NCBI GenBank assembly: GCA_004335835.1
Contig: RWJK01001774.1
Coordinates: forward strand, 5,228-45,792
From: Scenedesmus sp. ARA3
Lineage: Eukaryota; Chlorophyta; Chlorophyceae; Sphaeropleales; Scenedesmaceae
Direction of reading: 5' to 3'
Length of the DNA: 40,565 nucleotides
The notes under the pieces: model-generated
Told to the model about the DNA's origin: nothing
The model's database searches: none
What the model saw: the letters and a program-made list of their open reading frames with translations, nothing else
Position numbers and translations under genes: made by a program
Part shown: positions 6-40,411 of the stretch, piece by piece
How positions within the stretch are numbered: the first letter of the stretch is position 1
How the letters are laid out: each line of letters opens with the position of its first letter

Positions 6-39
<34 letters not shown>

Positions 40-61
40 GCTGCTACTGCTGCTGCTGCTG

Positions 62-113: not shown

Positions 114-114
<1 letters not shown>

Positions 115-1355: not shown

Positions 1356-1823
1356 AACCTCAGTCATCGTCATCGTCCAAGATGGCCCCACGCCGCACTT
1401 TGATGCCGGGCGCTGCCTTGTCAGCAGGGGCGCCTCCTCCTCCTCTGCTTCCTCCTCTTCTGAGTCGTAGCCGCGCAGCCAGCAAAGGCCCTGTGGCCGC
1501 TGCCAGGTGACATTCCAGAGCCTAACACACAAACAACTGCCAACGGCTCAATGACACAGCGCCGGTGTACAGCCAGCAGGCCTGCTGACCAAGCTTAGTC
1601 ATTGTCATCGTCAAGATGGCACCGCGCCGCACTTTGATGCCAGGCGCCGCCTTGTCAGCAGGCGCCTCCTCCTCTGCTTCTTCTTCCTCTGAGTCATAGC
1701 GCGCAGCCAGCAAAGGCCCTATGGCAGCTGCCAGGTGATATTTCAGAGCTCATCACACACAAACAACTGCCAACGGCTCGATGACAAGCGCCGGTGTACA
1801 GTTGGCAGGCCTGCTGACCAACC
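1356..1823 (-). repeat. two downstream partial copies of LEO1 terminal exon
   Basis: Two tandem units of about 232-235 bp follow the LEO1 stop codon. Each holds the 3' part of the last exon (1591-1705 and 1356-1474) plus a copy of the adjoining 3' flank, which shares the block around CTGCCAACGGCT. The coding copies begin near the GYDSEEEE segment and carry indels that shift the final Asp run out of frame. They would lie in or beyond the 3' UTR. Confidence 0.8.
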
Positions 1824-4800
1824 TCAGTCATCGTCATCATCCAGAATGGCCCCACGCCGCACTTTGATGCCCGGCGCTGCCTTGTCAGCAGGCGCCTCCT
1901 CCTCCTCTGCTTCTTCTTCTTCTGAGTCATAGCCGCGCTTCCTGCTGCTGCTGCCCCTGGGGGGCGGCGTGGTGCGCTTGGCCACACGCAGCCGCCGCTC
2001 TGCCGCTTCCTGCAAGCCAGCAAGCCAGCAGGCCAGCATGCAGTCAAATGTTACAGTTGCAAGCCGGCAGCAAGCCAGTGGCTACAATACGTGTGCAACA
2101 ATGATGAGGCCACGAACCAAGGCACGAGCAGGCCAACTCAAGCACACACAACGCTAGCAAGCACAGATGCCAGCAGTGCTCATTGGGTTGGTGGTTGAAT
2201 GGGCTGTCGCACTGCATGTCCCCTCTGTCAGCGGCCGCCGCCTGTACAGCTCGTCATCGTCTGCTGCTTCACTTGCCAGCATGATACACAAGCACAAATG
2301 CCAGCCACAGTGACAGGCACATGTATATACAGGTACACATACAAATTCAGCCCCACCTCCTCTTCTCTGTCAGCGGGCCGCCGCCTGTACAGTTCATCAT
2401 CATCTGCTGCTGCTGCCCCGCCCGCCTCGTCTTCCTCATCATAGCCCAAGTCGTCGCCACCGCCACCCTGCATTGGTGTCAAAAACGGCAATAATCAGGA
2501 AAAAAACAAAGGAACTGTTGTTGATTCTGGTTAACTCTGCTGCTGCCCCGCCGGCCTCGTCTTCCTCATCGTAGCGCAAGTCGCCGCCACCGCCGCCCTG
2601 CATGCGGCCACAATAAAGCAGTGATCACAGTAGGGCACAGGTCTAGTCTTTTTTTATTGTTGTTCAGCCAGCTTCCTTGTCATCGTAGCCCAAGCCGCCG
2701 CCACCGCCACCCTGCAAGAAACTACAACACCAGCAGTGATCAGGGAAAGGCACACATAGCTTTTGTTTTATTCTGTCGCGCGTTGTGAAACGCCGCTGCA
2801 GCGAAACCAGCACAAGCAGCTGCAGCCACACTCTCCTGCCAACCACTCCCAGCTGCAATCTGAGCACAGGGCACAGCCTGAGCAAACAATAACAAAATGT
2901 CTTGTATGTCGCAATCACAGCAGCAGCAGCAGCAGCAGCAGCAGCGGCAGGTGCTCACCGCAAACTCGTCCTCCTCCTCCAGGTATGCTGCAGTGTACAC
3001 ATTTCGCCGCTTGGGCGCTGCAGGCCGCGGCATCGAGCGCTCCCGCGCAGCCCTGCAGCAAGCAAGCACACAGCGCAGCACACGTGGCTTATGTTATGTT
3101 ACGTCATGTCATGTTGTGTTATCTTATGTCATGCTGTGCGGTATTACCTGGCAGCGCTGACGCTGCAGCTTGGTTCCACTGCCGGTTGCATTGCATATGC
3201 ATTGCCGTCAGTTCCACTGCCGATTGCATTGCATATGCATTGCAGTTGCAGTCTCATTGCTGCCTCCCATCTGACACAACAAAGATCTCTGTTTATTGCA
3301 GTGATCAGCACCCCGCCCTGCCTGGCTTTCCCCGCAGCCCCCGAAAACAGTCTCACTTGAGCCGCGCCTGCTCCTCTGCCCGCTTCTCAATCTCGATCTT
3401 CTCCAGCTCCGGGTTCTTGGCAGCGTAGTGCAGCCGCACCTGCAATCAAACGTTGAAAACACATGATTGTGTCATAGCATGGCAGCAGCAACAGCAGCCA
3501 GGTTCTCGATCTTCTCCAGCTCCGGGTTCTTGGCGGCGTAGTGCAGCCGCACCTGCAACATGTATAGTAAAGGGGTTGATTCATTTGGATGTTCGTTGCC
3601 GGCACAACACGCAACATAACACAAAACACACTGTGGAGTTGACTGCAACATTTCAGCAGAACTGCGAGGCCGCGCACACCTTGTCAACCTTCCTTGAGGC
3701 GTGCGCCACAGTCATCTTCAGCAGCTTGGAGCCAAGGCTAAGGTGAAACAAATGGCATGCACCTCCTTCACGCATGTCGTTGTCAAACCCAACACGCGAT
3801 ATAGTCTGATCAGAACCGAAGAGTGGCGCGCACCTTGTCCACCCTCCTTGACGCGTGTGCCACTGTCATCTTGAGCCGCTTGTGCAGCTTGGAGTTGATG
3901 TTGGCGGGGGCCACTGTCATGCGCGTGTTGAGGTGCGCCTGGCCCTCGATGACGTCATAACGCACCTGTTACAGCAGAAAACAACAAGAGACACTGCCGT
4001 TCAACTGCCGTCATGTACGCGTCAAGGTGTGCCTGGCCTTCAATGACGTCATAACGCACCTGTTAATAATGAGCGCCACGACGTACTGCACACAGGTAGG
4101 TGTGTGCCTGTAGCGTGCTGCTGCCCGATCACATTGAGCACCTCATCACCCAGCCTAGTCAACCCCAGTCAACCCTAGTCAACCCTGGTCAACCCCTAGT
4201 CAGCCCTTGTCAACCCCATGCAAACAACACCACTCACAGTTTACAAGTGTGAGCGTAATATTGCATTCTGCTGCCGGGTCATGGTGAGCATTTTATCGCC
4301 CAGCCTAGTCAACCTTGGTCAACCCCTAGTCAATTTTGGTCAACCCAGTCAAACTGCAGCTCACCGCGTACAGGTACGAGTGTGACTTTGCGTGCTGCTG
4401 CCGGGTCACATTCAGCACCTCATCCCCCAGCACGATGCTCTCGCTGCCATCGCTCCACTTGACATAGCGCGCGTTGCTCTCACGAGTGAGCTGCCCATCC
4501 TCCCCAACCCTGCACACAGCCGGTTGAAAGTTGGTTTCAACAGTCGTTGATCAAGAACAGAAGTTGCTGCTTGAGTGGAGGGAGAAGCACGGGTGGGCTG
4601 CATCGCCTATGCCATAAAGAGCTCGCTTGGCACAGTGCATATTGGTTGAAGGTGAGCGAGAATGGTAGAGAGTGCATACTGCACACTTGACAAAGCGTGC
4701 GTTGCTCTCACGCGTCAGCTGCCCATCCTCCCCGCCCCAGCCCTGCACACACGCGGTTTGAAGTTGGCATTGTCAGTTGGGTGCTGGTTGAATGGCGGGG

Positions 4801-8427: not shown

Positions 8428-11400
8428 ATGACAGAGAACGGCGACGCAGCAGCAGCTGCTGCAGCAGTAGCCGACGCGCCAGCAGCAGTGGACCCAGCAG
8501 CAGCAGCTGCTGCGCCAGTACCAGCCGCGGCCGCAGCAGCTGCTGCAGACCCAGCAGCCGCGGCCGCAGGTGCTGCACCCGACCCTGCTGCAGCTGCTGC
8601 TGCTCCAGTCGACGCAGCAAAGCCTGCAGCAGCAGACACTAATGGCACCAGCCAAGCACCCGCGCCAGCAGCAGCAGCACGCGTGCACGCTGCAGCTGCT
8701 GCAGCCGCAGCAGCAGCAGGCCGGCCACAGCCACCCAGCCTGGAGCAGTGCAAAGTCCTGCAAGCAGTAATCAAGCTCTTAGAGCATCATGAGGATGCCC
8801 GGAAGATGCTGCCGCTAGCAGCAATGAGTGCTGAGACGCTGCAGCTCACCCTCACACACTCCCCACAGCCAATCAATGTAGCAGACGTGCTCTCAAAGCT
8901 GATGCCACACCTGGAGCCAGCTGTAGCACACGAGCTGTGGGAGCAGTTCAAACGCGGCAGCGTAGCAGCAGCAGCAGCAGCAAACGGCGCTGCGGCAGCA
9001 GCGCCCACCGCGACAGCAGCAGCGATCCTGAGTCAGGCGGCGCCGCTCGCGCCCGGAGCAGCAAACCCCGCGCACGCAAAGCTACGGAAGCAGGCGTATG
9101 CTGCGAATAACGCAAAGTGCTCGGTGTGTGCTGAGACGTACCACCCCAGTTTCAGCCCGCTGCTGCTGTGTGACTTCTGCCCCCAGGCACACCATGTGTA
9201 CTGCTTGGGGCTTGACTGGCCAGACCTGCCCGAGGGAGAGTGGGCTTGCCCCAGGTAGGTTTGTTGTTTGCTGTGTTTGTGTAAGCTTGCAGCAGCAGTT
9301 GGGGTTGTTGAGCCAGCAGCAGCTGAGCTGCAGCGGCCAGAAACTGCAGCAGCAGCGCTGGCTGGTGTTGGTGTTTCGATAATCAGCCCCTTCAAAACGG
9401 AACACAAATGCACATGCGTGCCATGCATCTGGGCAGTTGGCAGTATCCACCATGTGTACTGCTTGGGGCTTGACTGGCCAGACCTGCCTGAGGGGGAGTG
9501 GGATTGCCCCAGGTAGGTTTGGTTTATATGCTGTTACGTGCTTTGTTTGCAACATCGGAGGGGGTTGTTTGGTGCAGCCAGCAGCAGCTGAGCAGCAGCA
9601 GCGGATAGCGCGCCACGAACTGCAGCCGCAGTAGCACTTTCTGGTGGTGGCGTATCAGTGAAGCGCCTGTTCAGCATGGATCAGAAATGCAAACGCGTGC
9701 CATGCAATTGGGACGATCAGCAGTATCCTTTCTTTCACTTTGCACTCTTTGTGACACAAGTGGCACTTGTGTCACAACAGCTAGAATAAGCAGCAGTTTC
9801 TTTTTCATGCTTTTGCATGCTATCACGGTGCCCAGCACGCGCACGCTCACCAACCCTCTGCTGCCTCTGATTGCTGCTGCTGCAGCTGCCTGCCGCTGCC
9901 TGGCGGCCAGCGCAACGTAATTCAGCAGCAGCGGTGAGTTGCTGCCGGCCTGGCGTGGCCTGCTGCAGCTGTGGCTGCGTCTGCGGGCAATCAGCTGTGC
10001 ATGCACAGCTTGCGTTTGCCGGGCTCTGGTTGTTATCATACTTTGTTGCACAGCGGCAGAGTATGAGGTCCAGCTGAATGCTGCCGTATTAAGCAGAGAT
10101 GAGTATTCCAGTCCAGTGCAGCACAGAGCGTCTGCTGTGCAGTCGCTTGTACAGGCAGTAAACAGCTCCCCAAACGCTGTTCGATAATGTGGCGCTGTGT
10201 TGTACTTATCCATGTTTGTGCTCTGCCTTTTGATGCCTGTTTGGACAACAGCTTCTCAACACACTGTTTGATGATGTGGTTTTTGTCGCACTGTGTTATT
10301 TGCGTCATCCTGCAGGCTGCTGGCGCTGCAGCGCGAGCAGCAGATGCGGCTCAAGGCCTTTGCCGCAGGCGCAGCAGCAGACAAGGAGCGGCGCAAGGCA
10401 GATGAGAAGCTGGCAAAGGAAAAGCTCAAGGAGGAGCAGAAGAAGGCAGACAGCAAGCGCGCGAAAGGGTGAGTGCGTGTGAGCGTCTCTGGTTGGTGTG
10501 TGAAAGTTTGAGGCTGATGAAAAGCTGGCAAAGGAGAAGCTCTCAAGGAGGAGCAGAAGAAAGCAGACAGCAAGCGCGCAAAGGGGTGAGTATGGAAGCT
10601 GCAATCTGTGGCACCTGCTGCACATGCAACCCATGCAGATTCACGTCCAGTGTTACATTCATTGAGCCTGCTGAGTGTTACAACAACTGTTATTTTGACT
10701 GTTACATTACTGTTGTTTTGTTGTTTGCTTGCTTGCTCCTGCAGGCCCTTCCAGGTGGATGACATGGACCTTGCCATGGAGGAGGCAGCAGAAGCAGCAT
10801 GCCTGTCCAACCTGCTGAGTGTTACACTGACCGGTGTTTGACTGTCACATGATGTGTTATATTGTTATTTCTTGCTCCTGCAGGCCCTTCCAGGTGGACA
10901 ACATGGACCTTGCCGTTGAGGAGGCAGCAGAAGCACCATGCCTGTCCAGCCTGCTGAGTGTTACACCAATTGTTACTTTGACTGTCACATGACTGTTATA
11001 TTGTCATGTTTTGCTCCTGCAGGCCCTTCCAGGTGGATGACATGGACCCGGCTATGGAGGAGGCAGCAGACGCAGCACGCCTGTCCAGCCTGCTGAGTGG
11101 TACACTGACCGGTGTTTGACTGTCACATGACTGTTATACTGTCATTTCTTGCTCCTGTAGGCCCTTCCAGGTGGATGACATGGACCTTGCCGTGGAGGAG
11201 GCAGCAGAAGCAGCCCGCCTGACCAGCCTGATGACTCAGCTGCAGGATGCAGCAGAGCGGGAGGGAGGCGGCGGCAGGCGCGGATCGGCAGCAGCAGCAG
11301 CGGCGGCAGCCATGCCGTACGAGCCAGCGGATGTAAGTGCGGGGCGTGAGATTGCGGGTTTTGGAAGCAGCGTGTTTAGAATGAGCATTGCTGGGTTCAC

Positions 11401-14364
11401 AGCGGTACAATGCTACTTGCTTGGAGACGGCTGCGTAGTCAAAGCTTGCCTGCAGCTCTGTTCTTTGTTTTTTTTTCAACCCAGCAGTTGCCTGATTTAG
11501 CCGTGTGTTGAGCAACTACACATGAAGTGGTTGACAGCCTGACAGTAACTGGTGTTTTCAAGTAAACATTTTGGAGCTAGTTCTCTATTTATAATTCTTT
11601 TGTTTCTGCAGGATGCCGCGGAATCGGAGCATGGCCTGCCGCCGCTGCCGCCCAACCGCCGCATCGGCGCTTATGGCGCGTACGGCGCAGGCGGCGGCGG
11701 CGGTTACAGCGGTGCGTCAACCGCCAGCGAGCAGCTGCGGGAGGCCAGCGACAAGCTGCGGCGGCTGCAGGCCACTGCTGCCGGGCCGCCAGCACTTAAA
11801 GACACCATTACGGTGAGCTTAGGTTGATAGATGGGATTCTGAAGTATCAGCGGCTGGGCTGTTGTATCCTCTGAAAGCCTGATCGGCTGCTGCCGCGGGC
11901 CCGCTAGCACTCACAGACACCCTCACGGTCAGCTGAGGTCGTTGCAAACATTTGAAGATAGTGGGCAGCTGCGGGAGGCCAGCGACAAGTTGCGGCGGCT
12001 GCAGGCCACTGCTGCGGGGCCGCCAGCCCTGAAAGACACCATCACGGTGAGCTGATTGATATAAACAAGACAATGGGAGTGCCAGCAGCTGCTGGGCTGG
12101 TTGCAGTTGTGTTGCAGCGTGCGGTGCGGCTGCTGCGGTGTGCTGCTGACTTTGCTTGGCAGGGTCTGTTGCTTGTGTGAGCAACACCTGCAGCTGCAAG
12201 CTTATTCTTGCTGTTCTGTCACCATATACAAACTCCAGTAACAGAATCATCTTTGCATGTGGTATTGCCCTGCAGGACGAGCGCCAGCTGCACAGCCTGA
12301 TGGACGCCCTGGCTGTGGCCGAGTTCCTGTCCACGTTTGCCGGCGTGTGCGCTTCCGCCAACTGCCAAACCACACCCATAACCAAACAACACACGTCAGC
12401 TGTATGTGTCATGTTGTGAAATGCTCGCAGGACGAGCGCCAGCTGCACAGCCTGATGGACGCCCTCGCTGTGGCCGAGTTTCTGTCCACCTTTGCGGGCG
12501 TGTGCGGGGCCCCGCTGCTGGGCCTGGCGCAGCTGCAGCAGGCTGCAGCGTGGCCCCTAGATGGCCCGGAGCTGTTTGAGACGTACAGCAGTCTGGTCAA
12601 GTACCTACTGGCGCAGTGGGTGAGTGGGGTTCAGGGGTAGTTGGCTTTAGAGTGAGGGTGAGTAGGCTGCTGGATGGCCCGGAGCTGTTTGAGACGTACA
12701 GCAGCCTGGTCAAGTACCTACTGGCGCAGTGGGTGAGTGGGGTTCAGGGGTAGTTGGCTTTAGAGTGAGGGCGAGTAGGCTGCTGGATGGCCCGGAGCTG
12801 TGTGAAACATACAGCAGCCTGGTCAAGTACTTGCTGGCACAGTGGGTGAGTGCAATGAAAGTTTGGCTTGGGGTTGGATAGTGCCATGAGTGTGTTGGTT
12901 TCTGCAATGGTCGCCTGTGTGACAGCCGAAGTCTGTTCAAAGCGTTGTGGGTGTAACGATCGGCAGCATGTTTTGGGAGAGCCGCTGAAACAGAACACGA
13001 GCTGCCTTGGCCAGCTGTTGTCACACTCTCCAACTTTGTGCTGCCTGCAATTGCTGCGCTGCAGAGCCACATCGAGTCGGGCCATGTGGGCGCGCGCGTG
13101 CGGCGCTGGGCTCGTTGCCTGGAGCGCAGCAGCGCCATCGGCAGCTTCGATGCAGCGGTGAGTGCTGCTGCTGCTGCTGCTGCTGGGCTGCAGTATTCGA
13201 ATAGTCACACTCACTTTTTATTGGCAGGCTGGCGCCGAGGGCGTGACTCGCATGGTGCCCAATAGCCTTGTACCAACACACAATAAACCTCAACAAAAGG
13301 TTGGTTTGGCACTGATGTGGTTGCTGACAATATGCAGGCTGGCGCGGAGGGTGTCAATGGCATGGTACCAAACGGCAACGCCACCTGGCAGGAGCTGCTG
13401 CGCCGCTACTGCCTGCTGTCGCGCAGCAGCCTGCGCGTGAAGGACAGCGAGCTGAAGCCGGGGCAGTGCTACGCCAGCATGACGGATGACCTGATCATGG
13501 TGCATGCCGCGGTGGAGCTGGGCAAGCAGGTAACGTATTGGGTTCAACATATGTTGCATCCTTTATCATTTGTTTTTTCATACATGTGTTTTTTGATACA
13601 TTTGTGTTTGATGGGACAGCGAGCTGAAGCCGGGGCAGTGCTACGCCAGCATAACCGATGACCTGATCATGGTGCACGCAGCGGTGGAGCTGGGCAAGCA
13701 GGTAACATATTGTTAGAACATATGTTACAAATACTGACATGTGACGCACATGTCTTTTAAAGGGACAGCGAGCCTGGGCAGTGCTACGCCAGCATGACGG
13801 ATGACCTAATTATGGTGCATGCCGCGGTGGAGCTGCGCAAGCAGGTGTGAAGAGCGTTATAAAACATGTTATATCACGTGTTACAGGTGATGTGCAGCGT
13901 GTGTTGAGTCTGCTCGGGAGACCGGCTGATGGTAAGTGGATTGCGTCTGTTCCTGCCTCACGCGCGTCTGCTGCTGGGCGCGTTGTGGCTACCTCTGCTG
14001 TCAATCGCATGTTAGTTGAGTTGCGTGCTCAACGCTGCTGCTGCTTCTGCTGCTGCTGCTGCTGCAGGATGCGTGGCGGCTGCCGCCGGAGTTTCACCTG
14101 CGGCTGTTGCACGCGCTGTGCAATGACGTGGTCAACTGCTTCAACATGAAGGCGGAGATCAGCAGCAGGTGCGTCAACGTCATGTCGATGTGCCTGCATT
14201 AAAATGATCTATGTAAGAGTTGTACGTGCGATTTCAGTGATGTCTTGACTTTCATCGCCTACTGCATGCTGCCGCAGTATCCGCTGCTTTGATTCAGCAC
14301 AGCACATATAACGTATGTCAGCCTGAACGTAGGCAGAAAGCGCAGCCTTATGAACAGCCTCGGT

Positions 14365-14395
<31 letters not shown>

Positions 14396-17300
14396 AGGCT
14401 GGACACCAGCATCGCGCTGCAGATAGAAAAGTTCCACGCGGATGCAGAGGAGCGCAAGAAGGAGAAGGAGGCGGCGCGCATGCGGCGCGAGGCGGCACAA
14501 GCAGCACGGTGGGTGGGCTCAACACATATCCAAGGCGGCAGCGACAAGCGTGCTCACTCCTCGCCCCAGTTTCTGCTTGTTTGCTGACTTGCATGAACAA
14601 ACATGACGTACCATCATAAATAATTTAAGTTGCAAAGTACTGATGCTGCAGGGACAAGCGTGCGCGGGAGCTCAGCATGGCCTCAACGCCAGACTATCTT
14701 CAACGCGCAGCTGCTGTTGCTGCTACTGCTGCAGGGACAAGCGTGCGAGGGAGCTCAGCATGGCCTCAACACCAGCAGATGGCGGCACGCCAGACCCGCA
14801 GTTTGCAAACTCGGCAGCAGCAGACGGCGGCGCAGACGGCGACAGCAGCGCTGCGGAGCCTCCTCTGAAGCGTGCACGCAGCAGCAGCGGCATGGCGGGT
14901 GACTTTGGCGGCATTGACGGCACGCCTGGGCTAGGTGAGTAACTGCGTGCTTTGGGTGGAGTAGTTGGTACGCTGTCTGTTTTGGTGTTGCTTGCGCTGC
15001 CTGTTACGCTTTGTTCGTGTTGTGGTCAACTGCAAGCAGAGGTTCACCTGGGTGACCTTGCTCAGGAGGTTTTCGCAGTGCTGTGTTACAGCAGCGCTGC
15101 GGAGCCGCCGCTGAAGCGCGCGCGCAGCAGCAGCGGCATGGCGGGTGACTTTGGCGGCGTTGACGGCACGCCTGGGCTGGGTGAGTAACGCGTGCATTGG
15201 TGGACCATGTTGGTAGGTTATTTTTTTCTGTGTGGCTTGCGCTGCCTGTTTGCTTTGTTAGCGTTGTGGTCAACTGCTAGCAGAGGTTCACCTGGGTGAC
15301 CTTGCTCAAGAGGTTTTCGCAATGCTGTGTTACAGCAGCGCCGCGGAGCCGCCGCTGAAGCGTGCACGCAGCAGCAGCGGCATGGCGGGTGATGGGTTTG
15401 ACACGCCTGGGCTGGGTGAGTTTGTCGTGCATGGTGGATTGGTGTTTCCTGTATGGCGTTGCTGCGCCCTGTCAATATGCTCCAGCTGTTCAGCAGCAAT
15501 CAGAAACCTGGCATTCCTCTCAGCGCTGCCTTGTGCTCTCATTGAAGTTGTGCTTTTAAAAGGTTCAAAGGTCCAAAGACAACGCCCTGCCGGCACAGAG
15601 CTCGTGTAGGTTTGGGAACCCCTCTTTCATACTGCAATGAGGTTTTTCAATCCGCACACAGGTGGCACGCGCGGCGACACGCCAGACATGCCGGACCCAG
15701 CCGCTACTGCTGCTGCGGCCGTCATCCGTGCATGACTCTCACCCACTCTGTGCCGCACACTTGTTGTCTGCAGGCGGTGCCGACACGCGTGACGGCACGC
15801 CGGACCCAGCCGCCGCAGCCGCCGGCGCAGGCTTCGACCCGCGCGGCGGCGCTGCTGCTGCCGGCTGGCGCAGCGCGGAAGATCGGGAGGCGCGTGATGC
15901 TGCGCTAAGTGCTGAGCTGGCGCGTTATTCGATCCGCAGCGAGCCGCTTGGGATGGACCGGCACCACCAGCGCTACTGGCATATGCAGGTGGGGAGGTGT
16001 TGATTTTGTTGTTTAGTAATCGTTCGTAGTTGTGTTATTTGTGCGACAGTTGAGGTAAGCTGGCCCGCTACAGCATCAGGAGCGAGCCGCTTGGTACCTG
16101 CCGGCACCACCAGCGCTACTGGCACATGCAGGTGGGGATCGTTACAACCCCTGTTACTGTCTTTAGCGCTTGGACGTATAGCTGATTGCTAAGCTGGCGC
16201 GCTACAGCAGCCGCAGCGAGCCGCTTGGGATGGACCGGCACCACCAGCGCTACTGGCACATGCAGGCGGGGATCGTTACCACCCCTGTTACTATCTTTAG
16301 CGCTTGAACGTGTAGCTGAGTGCTAAACTGGCGCGCTACAGCAGCCGCAGCTAGCCGCTTGGGATGGATGGGCACCACCAGCGGTACTAGCACATGCAGG
16401 GAGGGAGGTGTTATTCTTGCCGGTGTTGTTGTTATCATGGTTGTTATCATGGTAGTGAGTTGAGCTGGCGCTTTGCAGCATCAGGAGCGAGCCGCTGGGC
16501 ATTGACCGGCACCATCAGCACAACCCCTGTTACCCTTATTGCCGCAGCTGTTGTTGCACCCGCATGCCTTATTTGCTGCTGCTGCCACCGCTGCTGCTGC
16601 TGCCACTGCAGAGCCTGCCCAGCATCATCTTTGTGGAGAGCGCGGAGGGCGACAGCTTGGGGCTCATCACCAACAGGAGCCAGCTGGACGCATTGATGGC
16701 GGGGCTTAACAAGCGCGGCAGCCGCGAGAGCGCCCTGCACCAGGTGGGCTTGAGTCAGGTGTAAAACAGTTGTTTGCAAATCACCAGCTAGCTTCATGGT
16801 GCCGAGCATGCACATGTCGAGTGATGGCGGGGCTCAACAAGCGCGGCAGCCGCGAGAGCGCGCTGCACCATGTGGGCTTTAGTCAGATGTAAAACTGCAC
16901 AGTTGTGTGCAAAAACACCAGCTAGCTTCTTGGTGCCGAGCATGCATGTATCGGGTGGTAGCGAGGCTCAACAAGCGCGGCAGCCGAAAGAGCGCGCTGC
17001 ACCAGGTGCGTAGATACAGCAGTTGTTGATGGACAGATCGATGAACAGATTGCTGCATGGTGCATGCATGGTGCATGCATATGTTGGGTAAGCTCAACAA
17101 GCGCGGCAGCCGCGAGAGCGCACTGCACCAGGTGGGGTTTTGAGGCATTAGGTTGCCTACAGAATGCTGGTTTTGCCTGTAAGCCTGCCAGTTGCTCGGC
17201 ATTGCTGGCTGTGTTTGTGGAGTGATGGCGGGGCCCACGCCGCGCCTGCGGCCCCCTCACATGCCGCTGCATTCCGTGAACTTAAAGAAGGCTGCTGCTG

Positions 17301-17690
17301 CTGCTGCTGCGCAGGTGCTCCAAAAGCGTTACGACGAGTTCTGCCGCTGCCTGCGGCCGCCGCACATGCCGCTACACGTGGCAGCAGTGCCGCGCAACAG
17401 GCGCAGCCGCCGCAACTGGCTCAAGGCGGCAGCGCGGGCGATGCCTGCAAATGTGAAGCTGGACGCGTCTGGCTGGCCGCTGCAGCAGCAGCAGCAGCAG
17501 CAGCAGGATGATGAGGCGCAGCCTGACTACCAGCAGCTGCTGGTGAGTTTATTTGTGCATAACATGTTACATACCATGTTTCTGTTGTTGATTTGTCGGC
17601 ATGTTGCGGTGCAGCTGAAGCCGCCCGTGACGGCTGCTGTGCTGCACATCGCCAATCAAGGGCCTCGTCGACTTTCATTACCCGAACAAT

Positions 17691-17723
<33 letters not shown>

Positions 17724-20700
17724 AGGCCGCCAGTGAAGCCACCGCAGTGGCTGCCTCACTGAGTGAGCTACAAGGCCTGGTCAGCAATCCATTCGCTTCA
17801 CCAAATGCTAAATGCTGCTGCTGCTGCTGCTGTGTTTGTTACTGCAGGCTGCCAGTGAGGCCACAGCCGTTGCTGCCTCACTGTCGGAGCTGGAAAGCCT
17901 TGTCAGCGGCCTGGTAGGGGCGGGCATCTACGACCTGTCGGTCAAAGACTGGCGGGCGCGGCTGCGCGGCAAAACCTCCGTTGACGAGCTCTGTGAGTGC
18001 CTGCTTCAACTCAGTTTCTGTTTTGCATTGGCTTGAATTTTGTGTGTTTGTGTTTCGTCAAGGTCCCAGCTTGCCTGCATTTGTTGCTTGTTGGAGGTTG
18101 CTGGCGGTCTTGTGTTTTGGTGGGCCTTGTCAGCGGCCTGGTAGGGGCGGGCATCTACGACTTGTCGGTGAAGGACTAGCGGGCACGGCTGCGCGGCAAA
18201 ACCAGCGTGGACGACCTCTGTGAGTGCCTGCTTCAACTCAGTTTTTGATTTGCATCAGCTTGAAGTGGTGTTTCATTGTGTTTTGCATCAGCTTGAAGCG
18301 GTGTTTCATTGTGTTTTGTCAAAGTCTCAGCTTTCATGTTGTTGCTTGGTCGAGTTCTGTGGCGTTCTGATGTTTTGGCGGGCCTTGTCAGCGGCCTGGT
18401 AGGGGCGGGCATCTACGACTTGTCGGTGAAGGACTGGCGAGCGCGGCTGCGCGGCAAAACCTCCGTTGACGAACTCTGTGAGTGCCTGTTTTACTACGCT
18501 TTTGTTTTGCACCGGCTTCAGCTGTGTATTATCGTGTTTTGTGAAGGTCCCAGCTTGCATGCACGCTGGTTGTCGCTTGTTGGAGGTGGCTGGCGTGCGT
18601 GTTTGGTGGGCCTTGTCAGCGGCCTGGTAGGCGCGGGCATCTACGACCTGTCAGTCAAGGACTGGCGGGCAAGGCTGCGCGGCAAAACCTCCGTTGACGA
18701 ACACTGTGAGTGCCTGCCCTGCTTGTTTGGTGTCTATTTTGCAACTGTGGCTGTTCTGGTTGCGCGGTAATCGGCTACATTGGTTTGCATCACAACAACG
18801 CCAAGTCTCATCGCTCGTGCTTAAAACGCCGTGAGCTTGTTTCATGGCATGTTGGTTGCTTTCATGTGTTGTTATGTGGTGTCTTGTTGTTGTTTTCATT
18901 GTGTGCTCATGCTGACCTGGCCCGATTTGGCAGCTGCATGGCGCACCCCGTGCCATGTGACTTATGCTTCCCGGGCAACAGCAGCAGTAGCTACCCCTGG
19001 GGCATCACCGGATGGCACGCAGCGCTGCTGTGCGTGCCGCTGCTGCTCCTGGGGAACACATCTTCTGTATGTGTCCAGTTGTTTGCCACTTTGTTGTGTG
19101 CTATGCTGGCTAGCTCCGTCATGCTGGCTCCTCGGTTGGCAGCAGCGACCTGCACTGCCACCCTCACTGCGAAGTATCTGAACCTCTCAAAGAGTGCCGT
19201 ACGCAACCTCACTGGTTATGTTGTGTCTGCAGCATTGCAACCTTGTATCAAATAACAAGAATGTGTTACTGTATTTGCAACATCCACAGGCCAAATGCTG
19301 GAGGATTTTGAGGCCGCGCTGTCGCACCTCTCGCCATCAAAACAGTGTCACCAACGCCCAACTGTTTGAGTGTCACCAAAACCCGCTGCATTGCTGCTTA
19401 TCCACCCTGCAGGCCAAATGCTGGAAGAGTTTGAGGCGGCACTGTTGCACCTTTTGCCACAAAACAGATAATCATCAGCTCACGCTTCAGCTTTTTGCAC
19501 CTGCTGTATGGTGCTGCTGATAAACCTTGCAGGCCAAATGCTTGAGGAGTTTGAGGCAGCGCTCTCCCGTATCGGGGACGGCCGCCCAGCCGGCGCCACA
19601 GAAGAGGCGATCGACGAGTTCATTCGGGAAGCAGACATCTACGAGGCAGAATTTGTCATGCCTGTGTCAGCAGCGGAGCTGGCAGAGCAGCAGGAGGCAG
19701 CAGCAGCAGCGGCAGCAGCAGCAGCGGCCGAGAAAGCCGCCGCCGCAGCAGCAGACGGCGGCGACGGGGGTGGTGATGACGATGCATGCGAGCCACCAGC
19801 GCTTGCTGCTGCTGCTGCCGCTGCGCGGCCGCCGCCGCCGAGCAATAAGAAGGGGAAGAAAGCAGCCGCCAGCAGCAGTAAGAAGGGAAAGGGAAGTGGC
19901 GGCAGCAAAGCAGGCGGCAGCAGCAAGAAAGGCGGGAAGAAGGGCTCGGCAGCAGCGTCTGCTGCTGATGGTGATGCGGATGATGACACAAACCCTGATG
20001 CTGCTGCTCACAGGGGCCCTATGGTCACGCTATTTTCGGGCGCCACGCGTGTGCGGAAAGCAGGGCACGTGAAGCAGGAGCAGCAGCAGCAGCAGCAAGT
20101 GAAGCAGGAGGCAGGGGAGTCGGGAGACGCTATGCAGGTGGATGGCGCTGCTGCTGCTGCTGTGGTGAAGAGCGAGCAGGAGGATGCTGCAGCAGCAGCA
20201 GATGGCAGCGCTGCTGCTGCTGTGAAGGCTGAGCAGCAGCAGCCGGATGAGGATGTCACAAAGATGGTGTCGCCACTGGAGGAGCTAGACGACTCAGGTG
20301 AGCCCATTTCGTTTTTTTGTTTGTGGCCTGCAGACGTTTAGGCAGAAAAGCACTACCAAGAACATTGTGCAGCAGCAGGCGCACACAGACAGCCTTCGCT
20401 TGCAGCTGTACATCAGACAGAGCTGGCGAGATGTGGCTGTGCCCTTGATGTCTAAATGCACAAGTCACTGGTTCATCAAGTACTGTACTGCATGTACTGC
20501 CTTTGAACAACTGCAGATGTCGAGGCGGAAAAGCGCTACCAGGAAAAGCGCGCAGCAGACAAGGCAGGCGAGCCGCTGCCGCCGCCTCCCGTGTTGCTCA
20601 TGACGCACTAGTCGCTGACGCATTGTGTTCTACCTGCTCTCTTCAAACAACTGCAGATGTCGAGGCAGAAAAGCGCTACCAGGAAAAGCGAGCGGCAGAG

Positions 20701-23700: not shown

Positions 23701-24818
23701 GCATGGCACTGACCCTGCCACGTCTGCGCTGCCACTCTGTGCACCTCTCTCCTGCTCATTCATACCTTCCAACGAGTCCTCGGCTGCTGCGTGCTGAATG
23801 CACCTGAGGTATCCCACTTCGCTGTAACAGCTATGCCCTGTTAATGCACTGCTGACCCTGCCGCTCTTTGCCCCACCACTCCACCCCTGCAGGTCCCTGG
23901 CTGCAGCGTGCTGATGCACCTGGGCTGTGCAGGCATGCCCGATGCAGACTTCTACTACTGCCCTGACCACTGCATGAGCCTGCAGCAGCCCTGGCTGCAT
24001 GCGGTGCCCCCTCCAGACAAGTATCCTGCTGCTGTTTGCCCCGCCGCTCCACCCCTGCAGGTGCCCGGCTGCAGCGTGCTGATGCACCTGGGCTGTCAAA
24101 CATTGCTCTGCCACCTATGCTCTGCGTGCTGAACATTCTGCTGCTGTTTGCCCCACCACTCCACCCCTGCAGGTCCCCGGCTGCAGCGTGCTGATGCACC
24201 TGCGCTACCAGATGTTGCATTGTCAACTATGCCCTGTCAGTGCACTCCTGACGCTGCCGCTCTGTGCCCCGCCACTCCACCCCTGCAGGTGCCCGGCTGC
24301 AGCGTGCTGATGCACCTGGGCTACCAAATGCTCTACCAGCTATGCCTGTTTGTGCACTACTGTTTTGTGCACTACTGCTGACCCTGCCGCTCTTTGCCCC
24401 GCCATTCTACCCCTGCAGGTGCCCGGCTGCAGCGTGCTGATGCACCTGGGCTGTCAACTTTGCTTTGCTAGCCATGCCCTGTTGATGCATTGCTGACCCT
24501 GCCGCTCTTTGCCGCACCATCCCTGCAGGTCCCCGGCTGCAGCGTGCTGATGCACCTGGGCTGTCAAATGTTGCCTTATCAACTATGCTCTGTCTGTGCA
24601 CTGCTGACCCTGACGTTCTCTGCCTCGCCATTTCACCCCTGCAGGTGCCCGGCTGCAGCGTGCTGATGCACCTGGGGTGTGCAGGCATGCCCGATGCAGA
24701 CTTCTACTACTGCCCTGACCACTGCATGAGCCTGCAGCAGCCCTGGCTGCACGCGGTGCCGCCTCCGGACAAGTACCCCCAGCCACACGCGCCGCCAGTG
24801 AAGCCCAACGCGACCTGA
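8428..24818 (+). CDS. PHD-DDT-WHIM-PHD chromatin-remodelling factor subunit (ISWI partner-like)
   Basis: Twenty exons join in frame (4620 nt, 1539 aa): 8428-9254, 9886-9933, 10316-10468, 11161-11332, 11612-11812, 12431-12619, 13065-13157, 13338-13529, 14068-14168, 14398-14508, 14735-14934, 15774-15988, 16612-16743, 17315-17542, 17848-17992, 19533-20297, 20657-20853, 21491-21712, 22837-23091, 24645-24818. The order is: Ala-rich start; PHD finger about 230-278 (KCSVC, LLLCDFC, HHVYC, final Cys from exon 2); Lys/Glu-rich helix 292-343; DDT about 468-540 (LMDALAVAEFLSTFAG); WHIM1 about 575-660; coiled coil 660-705; WHIM2 near 820 (EPLGMDRHHQRYW); WHIM3 835-878 (LMAGLNKRGSRE); Lys/Ala linker; C-terminal PHD-like finger 1470-1525 (CCVCGGSG, MHLGC, CPDHC). 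DDT and WHIM motifs contact ISWI ATPases and linker DNA; PHD fingers read histone tails. No bromodomain or homeobox is seen. Individual exon choices are inferred from phase and motif continuity. Confidence 0.85.
9189..9728 (+). repeat. tandem unit with copy of PHD-encoding exon end
   Basis: A unit of about 260 bp starts inside exon 1 at ACCATGTGTACTGC and runs through the donor into the intron up to CAGTATCC. It occurs twice, with the second exon piece at 9450-9514. The second copy still reads HHVYCLGLDWPDLPEGEW with a GTAGGT donor. The joining point is visible as CAGTATCC followed by ACCATG at 9442-9450. Confidence 0.85.
9886..9933 (+). other. 48-nt exon completing the first PHD finger
   Basis: This short exon is flanked by a CTGCTGCTGCAG acceptor and a GTGAGT donor. 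It is the only sequence between 9254 and 10316 I found that fits phase 2 on both sides. It supplies the codon TGC right after the split serine, giving W-A-C-P-S-C. That restores the last zinc ligand of the C4HC3 finger, which direct joining to the next exon would lose. It then encodes LPLPGGQRNVIQQQ. It is listed within the gene above and kept separate because its inclusion decides whether the PHD finger is functional. Confidence 0.7.
10511..10586 (+). repeat. 3' fragment copy of exon 3 of the PHD-DDT gene
   Basis: It repeats the Lys/Glu-rich end of exon 3 (codons for ADEKLAKEKL) with a two-base insertion that breaks the frame and a retained GGTGAG donor. It follows the complete exon 10316-10468. 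Confidence 0.75.
10745..11160 (+). repeat. three regular 5' copies of exon 4
   Basis: Acceptor-plus-exon starts occur at 10745, 10884, 11023 and finally 11161, the complete exon, a spacing of 139, 139 and 138 bp. Each short copy repeats PFQVDDMDLA and the Glu/Ala run, then switches to intron sequence at CTGCTGAGTG before a donor. All four keep the CTCCTGCAG or CTCCTGTAG acceptor. Confidence 0.9.
11880..12052 (+). repeat. 3' copies of exon 5
   Basis: The complete exon is 11612-11812. The first copy (about 11885-11930) is short and decayed. The second (11965-12052) repeats QLREASDKLRRLQATAAGPP and ends in a good GTGAGC donor. Confidence 0.75.
12276..12845 (+). repeat. copies around the DDT-domain exon 6
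   Basis: A 5' copy at 12276-12357 repeats the acceptor and the codons up to FAGVC. The complete exon is 12431-12619. Two 3' copies then end at donors 12732 and 12845, exactly 113 bp apart and 113 bp from the parent donor at 12619. The copies repeat ELFETYSSLVKYLLAQW, the end of the DDT core. Confidence 0.85.
13229..13846 (+). repeat. copies around the WHIM1 exon 8
   Basis: One 5' copy (13229-13268) keeps the acceptor and AGAEGV, then breaks off. The complete exon is 13338-13529. Two 3' copies (13616-13701 and 13764-13846) repeat GQCYASMTDDLIMVHAAVEL. The first keeps a GTAACA donor; the second has GTGTGA. Confidence 0.8.
14653..15416 (+). repeat. copies around exon 11
   Basis: A 5' copy at 14653-14698 repeats DKRARELSMAS. 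The complete exon is 14735-14934. Two 3' copies ending at donors 15180 and 15415 (spacing 246 and 235) repeat SAAEPPLKRARSSSGM and the final Gly. The basic PLKRAR stretch resembles a nuclear localisation signal, so inclusion of a copy would duplicate it. Confidence 0.8.
15661..16520 (+). repeat. copies around the WHIM2 exon 12
   Basis: A 5' copy (15661-15722) repeats the DTPDMPDPAA region. The complete exon is 15774-15988. Three 3' copies end at 16131, 16265 and 16399, and a fourth fragment lies near 16460-16520, at spacings of 143, 134 and 134. They repeat RHHQRYW. Their donors degrade in order: GT, then GC, then lost; the third copy also has a stop in place of Trp. Confidence 0.85.
16800..17135 (+). 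repeat. 3' copies of the WHIM3 exon 13
   Basis: The complete exon is 16612-16743. Three copies of the end LNKRGSRESALHQ follow, ending near 16869, at 17005 and at 17131. The first has lost its donor (ACCATGTGGG); the other two keep GT. Part of the same block and of exon 14 recurs around 17225-17280. Confidence 0.8.
17725..18705 (+). repeat. copies around exon 15
   Basis: A 5' copy (17725-17800) repeats AASEATAVAASLSEL. The complete exon is 17848-17992. Three 3' copies end at donors 18219, 18477 and 18705 (spacing 227, 258, 228) and repeat GAGIYDLSVKDWRARLRGKT. The first has a TAG in place of the Trp codon; the second and third remain open. All keep GTGAGTGCC donors. Confidence 0.85.
19290..19532 (+). 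repeat. two 5' copies of exon 16
   Basis: Acceptor-linked starts at 19290 and 19413 precede the complete exon start at 19533 (spacing 123 and 120). Each repeats CQMLE and then shifts into intron sequence. Confidence 0.8.
20517..21015 (+). repeat. copies around exon 17
   Basis: A 5' copy starts at 20517, 140 bp before the complete exon start at 20657, and repeats VEAEKRYQEKRA up to the proline run. A 3' copy (20909-21014) repeats GVWVKDLRRARTTGAL, but has a frame-changing indel and an ATGAGT in place of the GTGAGT donor. Confidence 0.8.
21230..22219 (+). repeat. copies around exon 18
   Basis: A long 5' copy (21230-21341) repeats LMSNLALSRIRTGVAAAIAE. The complete exon is 21491-21712. Two 3' copies end at donors 21957 and 22219 (spacing 245 and 262) and repeat WEEALGLTR through the final Lys with GTGTGT donors. 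Each 3' copy is preceded by a GAGCAG or GGGCAG that could serve as an acceptor. Confidence 0.85.
22465..23530 (+). repeat. copies around exon 19 (first half of C-terminal zinc finger)
   Basis: Three 5' copies start at 22465, 22614 and about 22724 before the complete exon at 22837 (spacing 149, 110, 113). They repeat AALQEPRRKM. Three 3' fragments end near 23346, 23475 and 23529 and repeat the PEVACCE zinc-ligand end. The first of these 3' copies lacks several codons and has a frame change. Confidence 0.8.
23893..24644 (+). repeat. array of acceptor-linked 5' copies of terminal exon 20
   Basis: Exon starts preceded by CCCTGCAG occur at 23893, 24061, 24173, 24289, 24419 and 24529, before the complete terminal exon at 24645 (spacing 168, 112, 116, 130, 110, 116). 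The first copy is almost full length, to DK. The next five keep only about 36 nt, GCSVLMHL plus one or two codons, then return to intron sequence. A more decayed copy may lie near 23776-23810. This is the densest acceptor array in the window. Confidence 0.9.
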
Positions 24819-24959: not shown

Positions 24960-25056
24960 ATGTTCTGGTGATGCAGCCCTGGCTGCGCACGTTGCGGCAG
25001 CCAAACAAATCCCTGCAGCCACACGCGCCGCCAGTGAAGCCCAACGCAACTTGACA
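24960..25056 (+). repeat. copy of the PHD-DDT gene end after its stop codon
   Basis: It repeats the last codons of exon 20 (PWLRTL and HAPPVKPNAT equivalents, followed by a stop) and part of the flank GTGTATGACCAG. It lies about 150 bp beyond the true stop at 24818. Confidence 0.75.
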
Positions 25057-29075: not shown

Positions 29076-32000
29076 ATGGAAGCAGCAGCCCCTCCAGGGT
29101 TTATGGTAAAGCGCGGCGCGCGGGGCAAAACCTCGAGCGACCTAGACCGCGCCGCATCCCTCTCCTCAGCCCCGAGCCTTACATCAGCTGCAGCAGTATC
29201 CCCTTCCGCTGGATCTGGCCAGGACGATGCGCCTTTCGGCTATGAGCGGGTGCCTCCAGTGACAGCAAGCGTGGCTGCGTTTCAGCGGCGCTGCGAGTGG
29301 TTCTATGTTGATCCCTCGGGCGAGGAGCACGGGCCTGTGCCGCTGCAGAAGATCCTGAACTGGCACAAGAAGGGCCACTTCCCAGAGGACGTGAAGGTGA
29401 GGCGGCGGCGGGAGACAGTACACAATGCACCAGGAAGCGATGGCTGTTCCTGCACGACCGTACCTGGCACAATGTTCTCAGGGCTGTGTCATCTGTGGTA
29501 TTGCATTTCGGTTGCTCGCGCCCTGCTGCCGCTGCTGTCATGTCATGCAAAGCAGCTGCTCAGGTCATTGCTTGCTGCCTGCACACCATTAGCACAAACA
29601 ATGGCACGCCAACCACGCTGTTCCCTGCTTGCTGTTGCTGCAGGTGCGCTGCCGCTCGCCTTGGTTCCCTGTGGGTCCGCTGGTCAGGGCCATTGAGGAC
29701 GCACCCGACGCAGACACACCCACAGCAGCAGCACTCTCCCGCGCACCTGGCAGCAGCGCATTCTGCGACGCAGGACCCTTCAGCGCTGCTGCTGCTGCCG
29801 CGCTCGTGCCGCCGCCTCCACCACCGCCGCCGCCGCGGCCGGCCGGCATTAGTGCGGCCGGCAGCGTTCCTGCAGGCTTTCCTGCAAGCGCCGGCGGCGG
29901 CCCGCCGGCTGCGATGAGTCATGACGATGAGCTTAAAGCGCTGTTTGTTGGAGATGCATGGGGCGGCGAGCCTATGTGGTACTACTTTGACCGCAGCGAT
30001 CAGGTGCAGGGGCCCTTTAGTGCCCGGGAGATGATTGGCTGGGTCAGCAGCGGCATGCTGCTGGAGGAGACGCGCATGTGCGGCGCGGACGCCAAGCTGG
30101 GGGTGAGTTGTTATTTCTGTTATGTTGTGTTACAAAAGCACGTGTGATGTTTTGTGTGAGATGCTGTGATGCAAGGTGGTGTGGCATGCTGCTGGAGGAG
30201 ACGCGCATGTGTGGCGCGGACGCAAAGCTCGGGGTGAGTTATCAAAGACTGTTACTTGGTGTCTCATTTGTTACATATGTGTTGTTACCTCTGGTTTCTG
30301 TGATGTGGGGTGGCGGCATGCTGCTGGAGGAGACGCGCATGTGTGGCGCAGACGCAAAGCTCGGGGTGAGTGTGCATATCTTGATGATATAAATGCTTGT
30401 GTATTTACGATTGGCATGTTGCGTGTTGGCAGGCTGCTGGGGGAAACGCGCAGGTGCGGCGCCGACGCCTGTCGCTGCTTCTGTGGCCGGCTTGTGTAGT
30501 GCGGCAGTAGCAGTGTGTTGAGTTTTGAAGCAATGCTGCCGACGTTGAAGTTGCGCCGACATCTGCAGCTGTTGGGGCCACCTTCACCCTTCAGGTCTCT
30601 GCACTGCAACCCTCACGCCAATGCTGTGTTTTACTTGCTTTGACTTGTGTTGACTTTCCGTTGACCGCTGCAGATCCCGCCCGGCCGCAGCCTCTACCAG
30701 CCCCTCTCAGAGCTGCTCCTAGCAGTGCGCCGCGGAGAGCGCTACTCACCAGCAACCTTGGACTCCCTGCGCCGCAAGGGCTCGCTGCCAGTCGCCGGCG
30801 CTGCTGCTGCTGCTGCTGGCGGTGCTGCAGCCGGAGCGCTGCCAGCCCCACCCCCACCCCCTCCACCACCCAGGAGAGCCGACTCTCTCAGTAGCGGCTT
30901 AGGCGATGCATCTGCATCTGCAGCAGCAGCAGCAGCAGGCGGCTACGGGCCGGCTGCTTCTGCATTTGGACCACCTGGCAGGGCGTCAGATGCACCTACT
31001 TGGAGGAGGGATATCCCTCCACCTAGCGGAGGTGGCGGTGGCAGCGCAAGCAGCAGCGTGAGCGGTGCTGCAATGCTGAGAGTGAGCAAGGCAGACAGCA
31101 GTGATGGTGGCGGAGAGGCTGGGGGAAGTGCCCCTGGTAGTGCCCGTGCATCTGGGGGTGGTGGCGGTAATGCTGCGTCAGACGGCGGCGGCGGCGCTGG
31201 TGCTGAGTCAGCAGCAGCAGCAGCAGCAGCAGGGGGCAGCAGCGGCGGCAATGCCAGTGCAGGTGGTGGTGAGGGTGCTGATAGCGCTAAGGCTGCAAGC
31301 TACCACAGCATCAATGCAGCTGCATTGAATGCGGCGCTGGCGCCAGATCAGGATTTCGAATACGGCGAGGATTTCAAACGCCAGCGGCAGGCGCAGGGTT
31401 CAGCCTCGGGGCAGGGTTCAGGGGCCCAGGGCGGCAGGGGTGCTGCTGCTGGCGGGCGTGGCTTTGGGGGAGCTGCAGCAGGCAGGGGTAAGCCAATGCA
31501 GGGCCCTGATGGCGCAGAGCAGCAGCAGCAGCAGCAGCAGATGGGCGCACCAGGGAGTGCACCACTAGCTCAGGTGTCTGCTGCATCGCTGCAGCAGCTG
31601 CTGCAGACGGCCAGCGCTGCCGGCGCCTCGCCGGAGCAGCTGCAGATGCTGCTGGCTAACATGCAGCAGCACCAGCAGCAGCAGCAGCAACAGCAGATGC
31701 AGGCCGCACAGGCTCAAGCTCAGGCGCAGCAGCAGGCAGCCGTTGCAGCGGTGCAGAAGCAGGCACAGGCGGCAGCCATGGCGGCAGCAGGCATGCCAAA
31801 CCTTGCAGGGCTGCAGGGTTTACCGGCCGGCCTGATCAACCTTGGACAAAACCCTGGATCTGGCCCTGGATCTAATGGCCCGGGCAGCATGGGTGGGATG
31901 CTGGTGCCTGCTTCTGCACCCATTGCACTTGCTACTGCTGCCAGTGGCCCAGGGGGCTTGCAGGGACTGCCAGCTGGCATTGCTGCAAGCCTGATGAACC

Positions 32001-32112
32001 TGCAGCTGCAGCAGCAGCAGGGGCGGCAGCAGCTGATGGCGACTGCAAGCGGGCCGATGCTTGTGACGCTGACAAATGCAGGACAGCAGCAGCAGGGGCA
32101 GCAGCAGCCAGG

Positions 32113-32147
<35 letters not shown>

Positions 32148-32629: not shown

Positions 32630-32699
32630 ACCGGCTTGTGCATTGGCTTGTATGCCAGCTGAAAATGCAGCTGAGCTGTCTGCATCCTATGCCTGTTGG

Positions 32700-37054: not shown

Positions 37055-37086
<32 letters not shown>

Positions 37087-38448: not shown

Positions 38449-38509
38449 GCAGCTCAGCAGGTAGTGCTCGATTAGGGGGCGGCTTGTCTGCAGCAGCAAC
38501 CGCAACATC

Positions 38510-39600: not shown

Positions 39601-40086
39601 AAAGTGCATGCAGACAGCAGTACTACTCTACATAGTATGGAAGCTCAGTGGATGCACAGTATCAAGTGCAGTATCAAGTGAAGCACTAAGTGCAGCAACC
39701 ACAGCAACAAGCTGAAACACATGTTGAAACCCTGCAAGGCGGCGCTCTTGTCATTGCAAGCAATCAATCCTTCAGTCATGCAGCCTGCCAGTTTAGGTAA
39801 GTTCTCAACCAACCGGTCAGTACTGTACTCCCCTTGCGAAACCCAACGCAAGCAACCCAGCCAGCACGCTTCAGGTAACAGTAGGCAACCACCCAAGCTG
39901 CTGCTTGAACAGCCCACTCGGAGCATCGGGAGACTTGAGGCGGGGTTTCCTATTCCAGCATTGCTTGAAGGTGCACGCCCATGTGTACTGCGTACATTTG
40001 TCCTGTCTTTTTACAGCCACCCCCGTCAGCACCCTTGCCAAGGTCCTTGGGCAGGTTTTTGTAAAGTTTAAGCCACGCGACAGCGC
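39601..40086. other. no supported gene
   Basis: Short open frames on both strands without recognisable motifs. It contains the short repeat AGTATCAAGTGCAGTATCAAGTGAAGCAC near 39658. It probably includes the 3' flank of the minus-strand gene at the right edge. Confidence 0.4.
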
Positions 40087-40411
40087 TCAGGCAGTCTCCA
40101 CGTGCCAGTGGAGGCTCTTGTTCAGCTGCGCAGTAACGCGTAGACAGCCAGTTGCCAGGTAATTGCAGTAGCCACCAGAGACTTTTAAGCAGTCTCCACG
40201 TGCCAGTGGAGGCTCTTCTTCAGCTGCGCAGTAACGCGTAGACAGCCAGAAGCCCCTACAGGCTTCACGTACAGTAGCACAAGTGCTCACGCAGTCTCCA
40301 CTGCAAGCAGTGGCTCTTCTTCAGCTGCACACCCAGTGCGTATGCAGTCGCCTGCGAGCTTCAGCACTTGCTTCAGCAGTTGCAGACAACTGCAGTAGCC
40401 ACCATGATTGC
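40087..40411 (-). repeat. three downstream copies of the edge gene's terminal exon
   Basis: Copies of the end LKKS-HWHVETA lie near 40087-40130, 40186-40230 and 40288-40330, after the complete exon in gene direction. Two of them keep a stop in the same place (LNKSLHWHVETA and LKKSLHWHVETA); the third is disrupted. The intervening GCGTAACGCGTAGACAGCCAG-like flank is also shared between the first two. Confidence 0.8.

Follow-up and report, generated by a model that had tools for sequence, protein, structure and literature searches.

Truncated copies of exon ends beside intact exons in Scenedesmus sp. ARA3, and their possible exchange with the working exons

Why should the introns of an alga hold dozens of truncated copies of the exons beside them, and why should so many of those copies still resemble exons? 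The question is raised by a 40,565-nucleotide stretch of Scenedesmus sp. ARA3 (GenBank assembly GCA_004335835.1, contig RWJK01001774.1; the whole stretch is called the window below), which is the terminal 40.6 kb of a contig of 45.8 kb; the assembly comprises 87.3 Mb in 1,567 contigs. Truncated copies of exon ends do lie beside intact exons here, as a first-pass annotation had claimed. Across a PHD-finger gene in the window and five chaperonin genes, with 74 exons between them, 87 alignments representing 86 distinct copies echo exon ends, and their geometry supports an origin in short tandem duplications across one splice site. The explanation that we prefer, at somewhat less than an even chance, is that the copies were born in this way and were then kept exon-like by repeated recombination with the working exon.

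Geometry of the copies

To avoid circularity, exons were defined from outside proteins with a purpose-written spliced aligner. The PHD-finger gene was modelled as 20 exons on the Tetradesmus obliquus UniRef entry A0A383VPI7, and a protein of Scenedesmus NREL 46B-D3 gave the same main exons. As 24 of 1529 aligned residues differ between this gene and A0A383VPI7, we take the latter to come from another genome of the species. The protein of this gene, together with the CCT-epsilon protein described below, assigns the genome to T. obliquus or a very close relation. A chaperonin family search matched 11 contigs, from which eight loci were taken; five gave usable models (54 exons, from Raphidocelis, Chromochloris and Scenedesmus NREL 46B-D3 proteins), and three with poor models based on distant paralogues (L026, L030 and L031) are excluded from all counts. 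L026 and L027 were chosen after overlapping matches were already evident, so the choice of L027, the source of 24 of the 40 chaperonin copies, was not blind; the model of L032 includes two doubtful mini-exons. Four exons of a Leo1 gene on the minus strand were read by eye. In the scan, each exon of at least 40 nt, with 60 nt of intron per side, was compared with the surrounding 3 kb, and a copy counted as edge-bearing if it reached 3 nt past the exon edge. Two CAG-run matches between real PHD-gene exons and one chaperonin match 6.5 kb distant were dropped, the latter taking the chaperonin count from 41 to 40.

At least one copy accompanies 35 of the 74 modelled exons. The copies obey a strict side rule, also as first described: all 39 upstream edge-bearing alignments keep the 5' edge of the exon and all 45 downstream ones keep the 3' edge, although three of these 3' edges are the end of the modelled coding sequence rather than a donor. 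None of the 87 alignments spans a whole exon and none lies on the wrong side. The three that fail the edge rule are in the PHD gene, where two extend 2 nt beyond the edge and one stops 17 nt before it; this gene has 49 alignments, or 47 after the CAG-repeat matches are dropped (46 distinct copies), with 24 downstream and 20 upstream copies beside those three. Leo1 has 12 copies at all four exons read, each on the correct side, one of which stops about 5 nt before the edge, and a GYF-domain gene has two 3'-end copies. The 59 alignments in the two modelled genes of the window make an earlier count by eye of roughly 70 plausible. The statement that nearly every exon is copied holds for the PHD gene (15 of 20 exons) and Leo1 but not elsewhere, since only 20 of 54 chaperonin exons have copies; L027 has them at 9 of its 12 exons, and the remaining four genes at 11 of 42. 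One of those four, L028 (CCT-zeta, C837:15800-20600), has 12 exons, short introns and no copies or local repeats at all, and variation from gene to gene is strong.

Self-alignment of the window, which the first-pass annotation had proposed as a check, returned 81 repeat pairs within 2.5 kb, 80 of them direct; the other is a near-perfect 29-nt palindrome (9749-9777) within intron 1 of the PHD gene. In a reverse-strand control the PHD gene gave 11 matches, Leo1 none and the chaperonin genes one. Because the PHD reverse-strand matches are all CAG/CTG runs, and CAG matches were dropped, chance and low complexity were rejected as a source. Chaperonin exons compared with the four other chaperonin loci, a fourfold search space, gave 13 matches, which we take, uninspected, for paralogy.

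The copies are not confined to one contig, again in line with what had been proposed. In a sample of 16 stretches from other contigs (126 kb in total, taken at even steps of contig number), 13 had local direct repeats of at least 40 nt and none had inverted ones. One of the 13, L012 (C496:20001-26139), resembles another repeat family, with 31 distant repeat pairs and with offsets of 482-573, unlike the copies described here. The window and the 16 stretches together hold 176 direct pairs of at least 30 nt (offset 30-600) versus three inverted pairs (within 1 kb). The pooled offsets are all at least 60 bp, with maxima at 105-150 and 225-270 bp, and the nearest copy in each of 45 arrays lies at 83-172 or 218-261 bp, with a gap between the two classes. 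Inner truncation points, by reading, are common to the copies within several arrays. Flank similarity was scored for 83 of the 84 edge-bearing copies, the other having too little intron; the intron part retains similarity in 50, and none is detectable in 33. Direct orientation, the side rule, the common truncation points and the 50 copies with intron similarity point, as the first reading had it, to tandem duplication of units that span a single splice site, one end of the unit lying within an exon and the other within an intron. The chaperonin and PHD gene models retain their intact exons whole.

The copies thus probably began as tandem duplications, some 80-170 or 220-260 bp long, that spanned one splice site. 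Repair of staggered breaks yields short tandem duplications, and in the accessible part of that study (PMC8355091) these are likewise short, direct and adjacent, with a length set by the stagger of the break; the work concerns mainly mouse cells, and later exchange is no part of that system. By analogy, end joining of a staggered break may have produced the copies in the alga, the stagger setting the duplication length. The same geometry and direct orientation would arise if short tandem duplications fell at random, those at exon edges survived as one intact exon remained, and neutral decay followed. Random placement, however, leads to exon contact in a mean of 54 of 89 local pairs in six genes (maximum 66 in 300 trials), whereas 79 of the 89 touch an exon.

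Introns with copies have a median length of 622 bp (n=31) versus 279 bp for those without (n=40), which agrees with the earlier suggestion of intron expansion. For T. obliquus, the accessible text of PMC5966456 gives a mean intron of 462 bp, compared with 230-302 bp in four other green algae.

Coding and splice signals in the copies

If the copies were neutral pseudo-exons, their differences from the exon should be spread over the codon positions. They are not. The 5241 exon positions that were aligned contain 93 mismatches at first, 65 at second and 304 at third codon positions, a ratio of 3.85 for third positions over the average of the other two (3.04-4.99 when exons are bootstrapped; 3.89 without L027). 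Simulated neutral copies of constrained exons, generated with substitutions drawn from the spectrum seen in the intron parts and filtered by a comparable detection rule, gave ratios of 1.47-1.59 over five age distributions. The bias is strongest in the 33 copies without flank similarity, at 5.96 (4.20-9.71) versus 2.88 (2.02-4.11) in the other 50. Exon parts of these flank-less copies are 76-100% identical to the exon, differing by 0.20 at third positions and 0.03-0.04 at positions 1 and 2, and their offsets fall within the same two size classes.

Similarity also tends to stop at the exon: 49% of alignments end no more than 15 nt outside it, versus 4-18% in simulation. Splice signals persist nonetheless. 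Over the whole set, 37 of 39 copied 5' edges retain their AG and 38 of 45 copied 3' edges their GT, and acceptors, scored with a matrix from real sites, reach 10.4 in copies and 10.8 in their exons, against an intronic background of -1.5. Among 13 5' copies whose aligned intron is 8 nt or less, 12 of them belonging to the flank-less 33, AG is present in 12, and the pre-acceptor pyrimidine fraction is 0.658, compared with 0.651 at real sites and 0.479 before intronic YAG. Gene conversion of the exon part alone, between old arrays whose intron parts are neutral, was considered and rejected, as the pyrimidine tracts should then have faded, yet they were kept.

Codon bias, loss of intron similarity with exon and splice signals retained, and pyrimidine tracts like those of real sites do not fit neutral decay, and they do not support the idea that the copies are merely tolerated leftovers. 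Random duplication followed by such decay is in our judgment improbable, even with stops or frameshifts in some copies, a near-even split of private changes and a milder bias in the youngest-looking copies, all given below, to speak for it.

Exchange with the working exon, and its alternatives

Partly dead, the copies on the whole still resemble exons and carry good splice signals next to unrelated flanks, which suggests lineages that have served part of the time as a working exon end. In the explanation that we prefer, arrays would grow and shrink through unequal exchange, and fragments would also exchange with the working exon, so that in some alleles a fragment and its splice site become the real exon end. 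Recombination at the short stretch of exon sequence that a copy and the exon have in common would delete the intervening unit and put the splice site of the copy into use. Service as an exon end would expose fragments to selection as the intron parts drift; exchange among alleles of unlike array length would expose both sites to selection while introns diverge, and copies dropping out of exchange would decay. Conflicting relations among copies fit this reading. Exon parts and flanks suggest different groupings in 16 of the 31 triples that can be resolved, and of 14 informative site pairs 10 are incompatible with a single tree. At exon 7 of the gene for CCT-epsilon, in L027, the more distant of two 5' copies matches the exon at 96% but has an unrelated flank, and the nearer copy matches at 86% and has a related one. 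A broader proposition, that copies in most genes are spare exon ends (acceptor with exon start, or exon end with donor) that work part time, are swapped in by recombination and are under coding and splice selection, is possible, with the balance of probability leaning clearly the other way.

Several observations weigh against exchange. That second step is inferred from one assembly, and the simulation lacks CpG context and takes its spectrum from 259 intron mismatches. The tests for conflicting relations draw on few sites, no more than two in several cases, and their outcome could be mimicked by recurrent mutation. Donors score 6.7 in copies versus 8.75 in their exons, so that the early description of the copies as decoy splice sites stands for acceptors, which are as strong as real ones, and is weaker for donors. 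A stop or frameshift interrupts 16 of 83 copies. Our expectation that preservation would be best in the outermost copy was refuted: lesions are commonest there (11 of 24 farthest copies, compared with 3 of 38 inner copies and 2 of 21 that stand alone), an excess that fits exchange fading with distance and equally fits greater age. Finally, changes private to one copy fall at codon positions 1, 2 and 3 in numbers of 36, 40 and 84 (75 synonymous versus 82 not) and are nearer to neutral than the pairwise ratio. The bias is also milder in the 16 youngest-looking copies (intron identity above 0.9), with 40 mismatches at position 3 and 23 and 12 at positions 1 and 2.

The copies could also come from a diverged allele, pieces of which were joined in when unlike homologues underwent unequal exchange; the differences would then be old and synonymous and the introns unlike from birth. 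The third-position excess of the flank-less class is what such capture would give. Two copies of CCT-epsilon exon 9, though, have the same inner breakpoint and flanks that by reading are unlike each other and unlike that of the exon, so that one and the same illegitimate joint would have had to form twice, and the offsets of flank-less copies belong to the common size classes. We regard allele capture as unlikely.

Direct use of the copies in splicing has to be weighed at CCT-epsilon exon 11, which has six downstream copies with a period of about 107 bp (L027:7768-8574). Over 527 residues the CCT-epsilon of L027 shows no substitutions against the T. obliquus protein A0A383W8E2, once a 15-residue insert is removed from the latter. 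That additional peptide, DNMVRVEQYAMRAFA, is an in-frame exon in the public protein, and the six copies encode variants of it, the third with one residue different. The match indicates that the annotation of A0A383W8E2 mistook a copy for an exon, a practical warning for users of public gene models, and that a similar array exists in a second genome of the species. A transcript-derived sequence from a relative, GHUV01022605.1, departs from the common sequence exactly at the exon 11 donor, as with intron retention.

If such splice sites were used in some transcripts and the fragments translated, selection could act directly on coding and splice signals. The annotated exon 11 copy, the acceptor scores and the codon bias speak for such use. 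The accessible part of PMC12899622 adds three variant transcripts of one gene in S. acutus (there a synonym of S. obliquus), arising through intron retention or exon skipping, with exon copies unmentioned. Insertion of the fragments would disturb conserved proteins, however, 16 of 83 copies are broken, and offsets to the nearest copy are mostly not multiples of three (12 of 45 are). A boundary listing read by eye found, as a rule, neither AGGT within the repeat nor GT/AG at the truncation points, and splicing at such sites was set aside as a general route. We consider direct use of the copies unlikely.

A0A383W8E2 and A0A383VPI7 are probably entries from strain UTEX 393. The UTEX 393 assembly was built from Illumina reads (PMC5255914). 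An artefact of assembly, whether from mixed haplotypes or from collapsed repeats, would have to explain copies that differ by 0-25% and obey one size law on many contigs, and the peptide in A0A383W8E2 that the third exon 11 copy matches in all but one residue; it is scarcely credible.

Tandem exon duplication, including that behind mutually exclusive exons, puts additional direct copies beside an exon. Here, none of the 87 alignments is a whole exon, and each edge-bearing copy has one splice site only. Known tandem duplication across an intron-exon boundary, of which the accessible text of PMC4974935 describes a single case in potato RdRp, likewise crosses the boundary and inherits splice signals from the parent; there one event makes a new intron, whereas here partial copies are many, several genes are involved, the intact exon stays and the copies are exon-like. 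Introner elements are likewise a form of mass intronic growth in algae, but as far as the accessible text of PMC3488318 goes they are common to the introns of many genes, whereas the one exon searched here, CCT-epsilon exon 7, had four genome matches, all at its own locus. Arrays of half-exons were not found among titles and the opening lines of abstracts, a search with most subscription journals outside its scope, and the accessible part of PMC8780407 has nothing on exon copies.

These genes offer a natural experiment in how introns lengthen and in how splicing picks the right site among near-perfect decoys. If copies do exchange with working exons, introns would be a reserve of functional exon ends, something that no theory of intron gain or pseudogenes known to us foresees.

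Coordinates and other items in the window

Table 1. Genes, exons and exon-end copies (echoes) in the window; positions are those of the window
Feature	Position	Strand	Basis
PHD-finger / PF15613 gene, 20 exons	8428..24815	+	A0A383VPI7 spliced alignment, PHD domain match, Pfam of homologues
PHD-gene exons 1-10	8428-9254, 9886-9933, 10316-10468, 11161-11332, 11612-11812, 12431-12619, 13065-13157, 13338-13529, 14068-14168, 14398-14508	+	
PHD-gene exons 11-20	14735-14934, 15774-15988, 16612-16743, 17315-17542, 17848-17992, 19533-20297, 20657-20853, 21491-21712, 22837-23091, 24645-24815	+	
PHD exon 1 echo, 3' end with donor	9448..9569	+	echo scan
PHD exon 3 echo, 3' end with donor	10529..10591	+	echo scan
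PHD exon 4, three echoes, 5' end with acceptor	10694-10818, 10823-10957, 10977-11096	+	echo scan, TRF array
PHD exon 5, two echoes, 3' end	11890-11939, 11965-12061	+	echo scan
PHD exon 6 echo, 5' end	12272..12351	+	echo scan
PHD exon 6, two echoes, 3' end	12680-12792, 12783-12852	+	echo scan
PHD exon 8, two echoes, 3' end	13614-13729, 13771-13846	+	echo scan
PHD exon 11 echo, 5' end	14644..14674	+	echo scan
PHD exon 11, two echoes, 3' end	15088-15239, 15332-15421	+	echo scan
PHD exon 12, four echoes, 3' side	16058-16138, 16181-16272, 16315-16412, 16461-16519 (last: 17 nt before edge)	+	echo scan
PHD exon 13, three echoes, 3' end	16822-16937, 16961-17008, 17092-17139	+	echo scan
PHD exon 15 echo, 5' end (two overlapping alignments)	17688..17785	+	echo scan
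PHD exon 15, three echoes, 3' end	18124-18264, 18382-18518, 18610-18717	+	echo scan
PHD exon 16, two echoes, 5' end	19287-19323, 19381-19443	+	echo scan
PHD exon 17, two echoes, 5' end	20328-20375, 20506-20592	+	echo scan
PHD exon 17 echo, 3' end	20914..21022	+	echo scan
PHD exon 18 echo, 5' end	21226..21334	+	echo scan
PHD exon 18, two echoes, 3' end	21818-22011, 22091-22225	+	echo scan
PHD exon 19, three echoes, 5' end	22436-22509, 22596-22650, 22722-22763	+	echo scan
PHD exon 19, two echoes, 3' end	23193-23366, 23423-23499	+	echo scan
PHD exon 20, six echoes, 5' end	23833-24026, 24037-24096, 24149-24202, 24229-24320, 24374-24454, 24474-24564	+	echo scan
PHD exon 20 echo, coding-sequence end, no donor	24973..25054	+	echo scan
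Leo1 gene, four exons	5862-5692, 4509-4365, 3965-3834, 3439-3357	-	Pfam Leo1, read by eye
Leo1 first listed exon, two echoes, 5' end	6101-6024, 6002-5936	-	
Leo1 first listed exon, three echoes, 3' end	5553-5389, 5304-5193, 5144-5056	-	
Leo1 second listed exon, two echoes, 5' end	4926-4863, 4767-4684	-	
Leo1 second listed exon, two echoes, 3' side	4304-4175, 4154-4092 (second: ~5 nt before edge)	-	
Leo1 third listed exon echo, 5' end	4026..4065	-	
Leo1 third listed exon echo, 3' end	3672..3728	-	
Leo1 fourth listed exon echo, 5' end	3504..3558	-	
GYF-domain gene, exon 3' end with donor, two downstream repeats (132-bp period, 2.5 copies)	30050..30371	+	by reading

All three copies of PHD exon 4 carry, at 364 and 367, residues of the NREL 46B-D3 protein that both T. 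obliquus proteins lack, and this suggests, from the sequences, an old array. Residues that differ from A0A383VPI7 were tried as haplotype markers and abandoned as too few: the copies agree with the ARA3 gene at eight, with the UniRef entry at four and with neither at one.

Triplet runs, (GCT)n and (GCA)n, occupy the two ends of the window (1-115 and 40509-40565); on the right, window and contig end together. Open frames at 32084-32491 and 35971-38448 contain long runs of CAG type that would encode polyglutamine and polyalanine.

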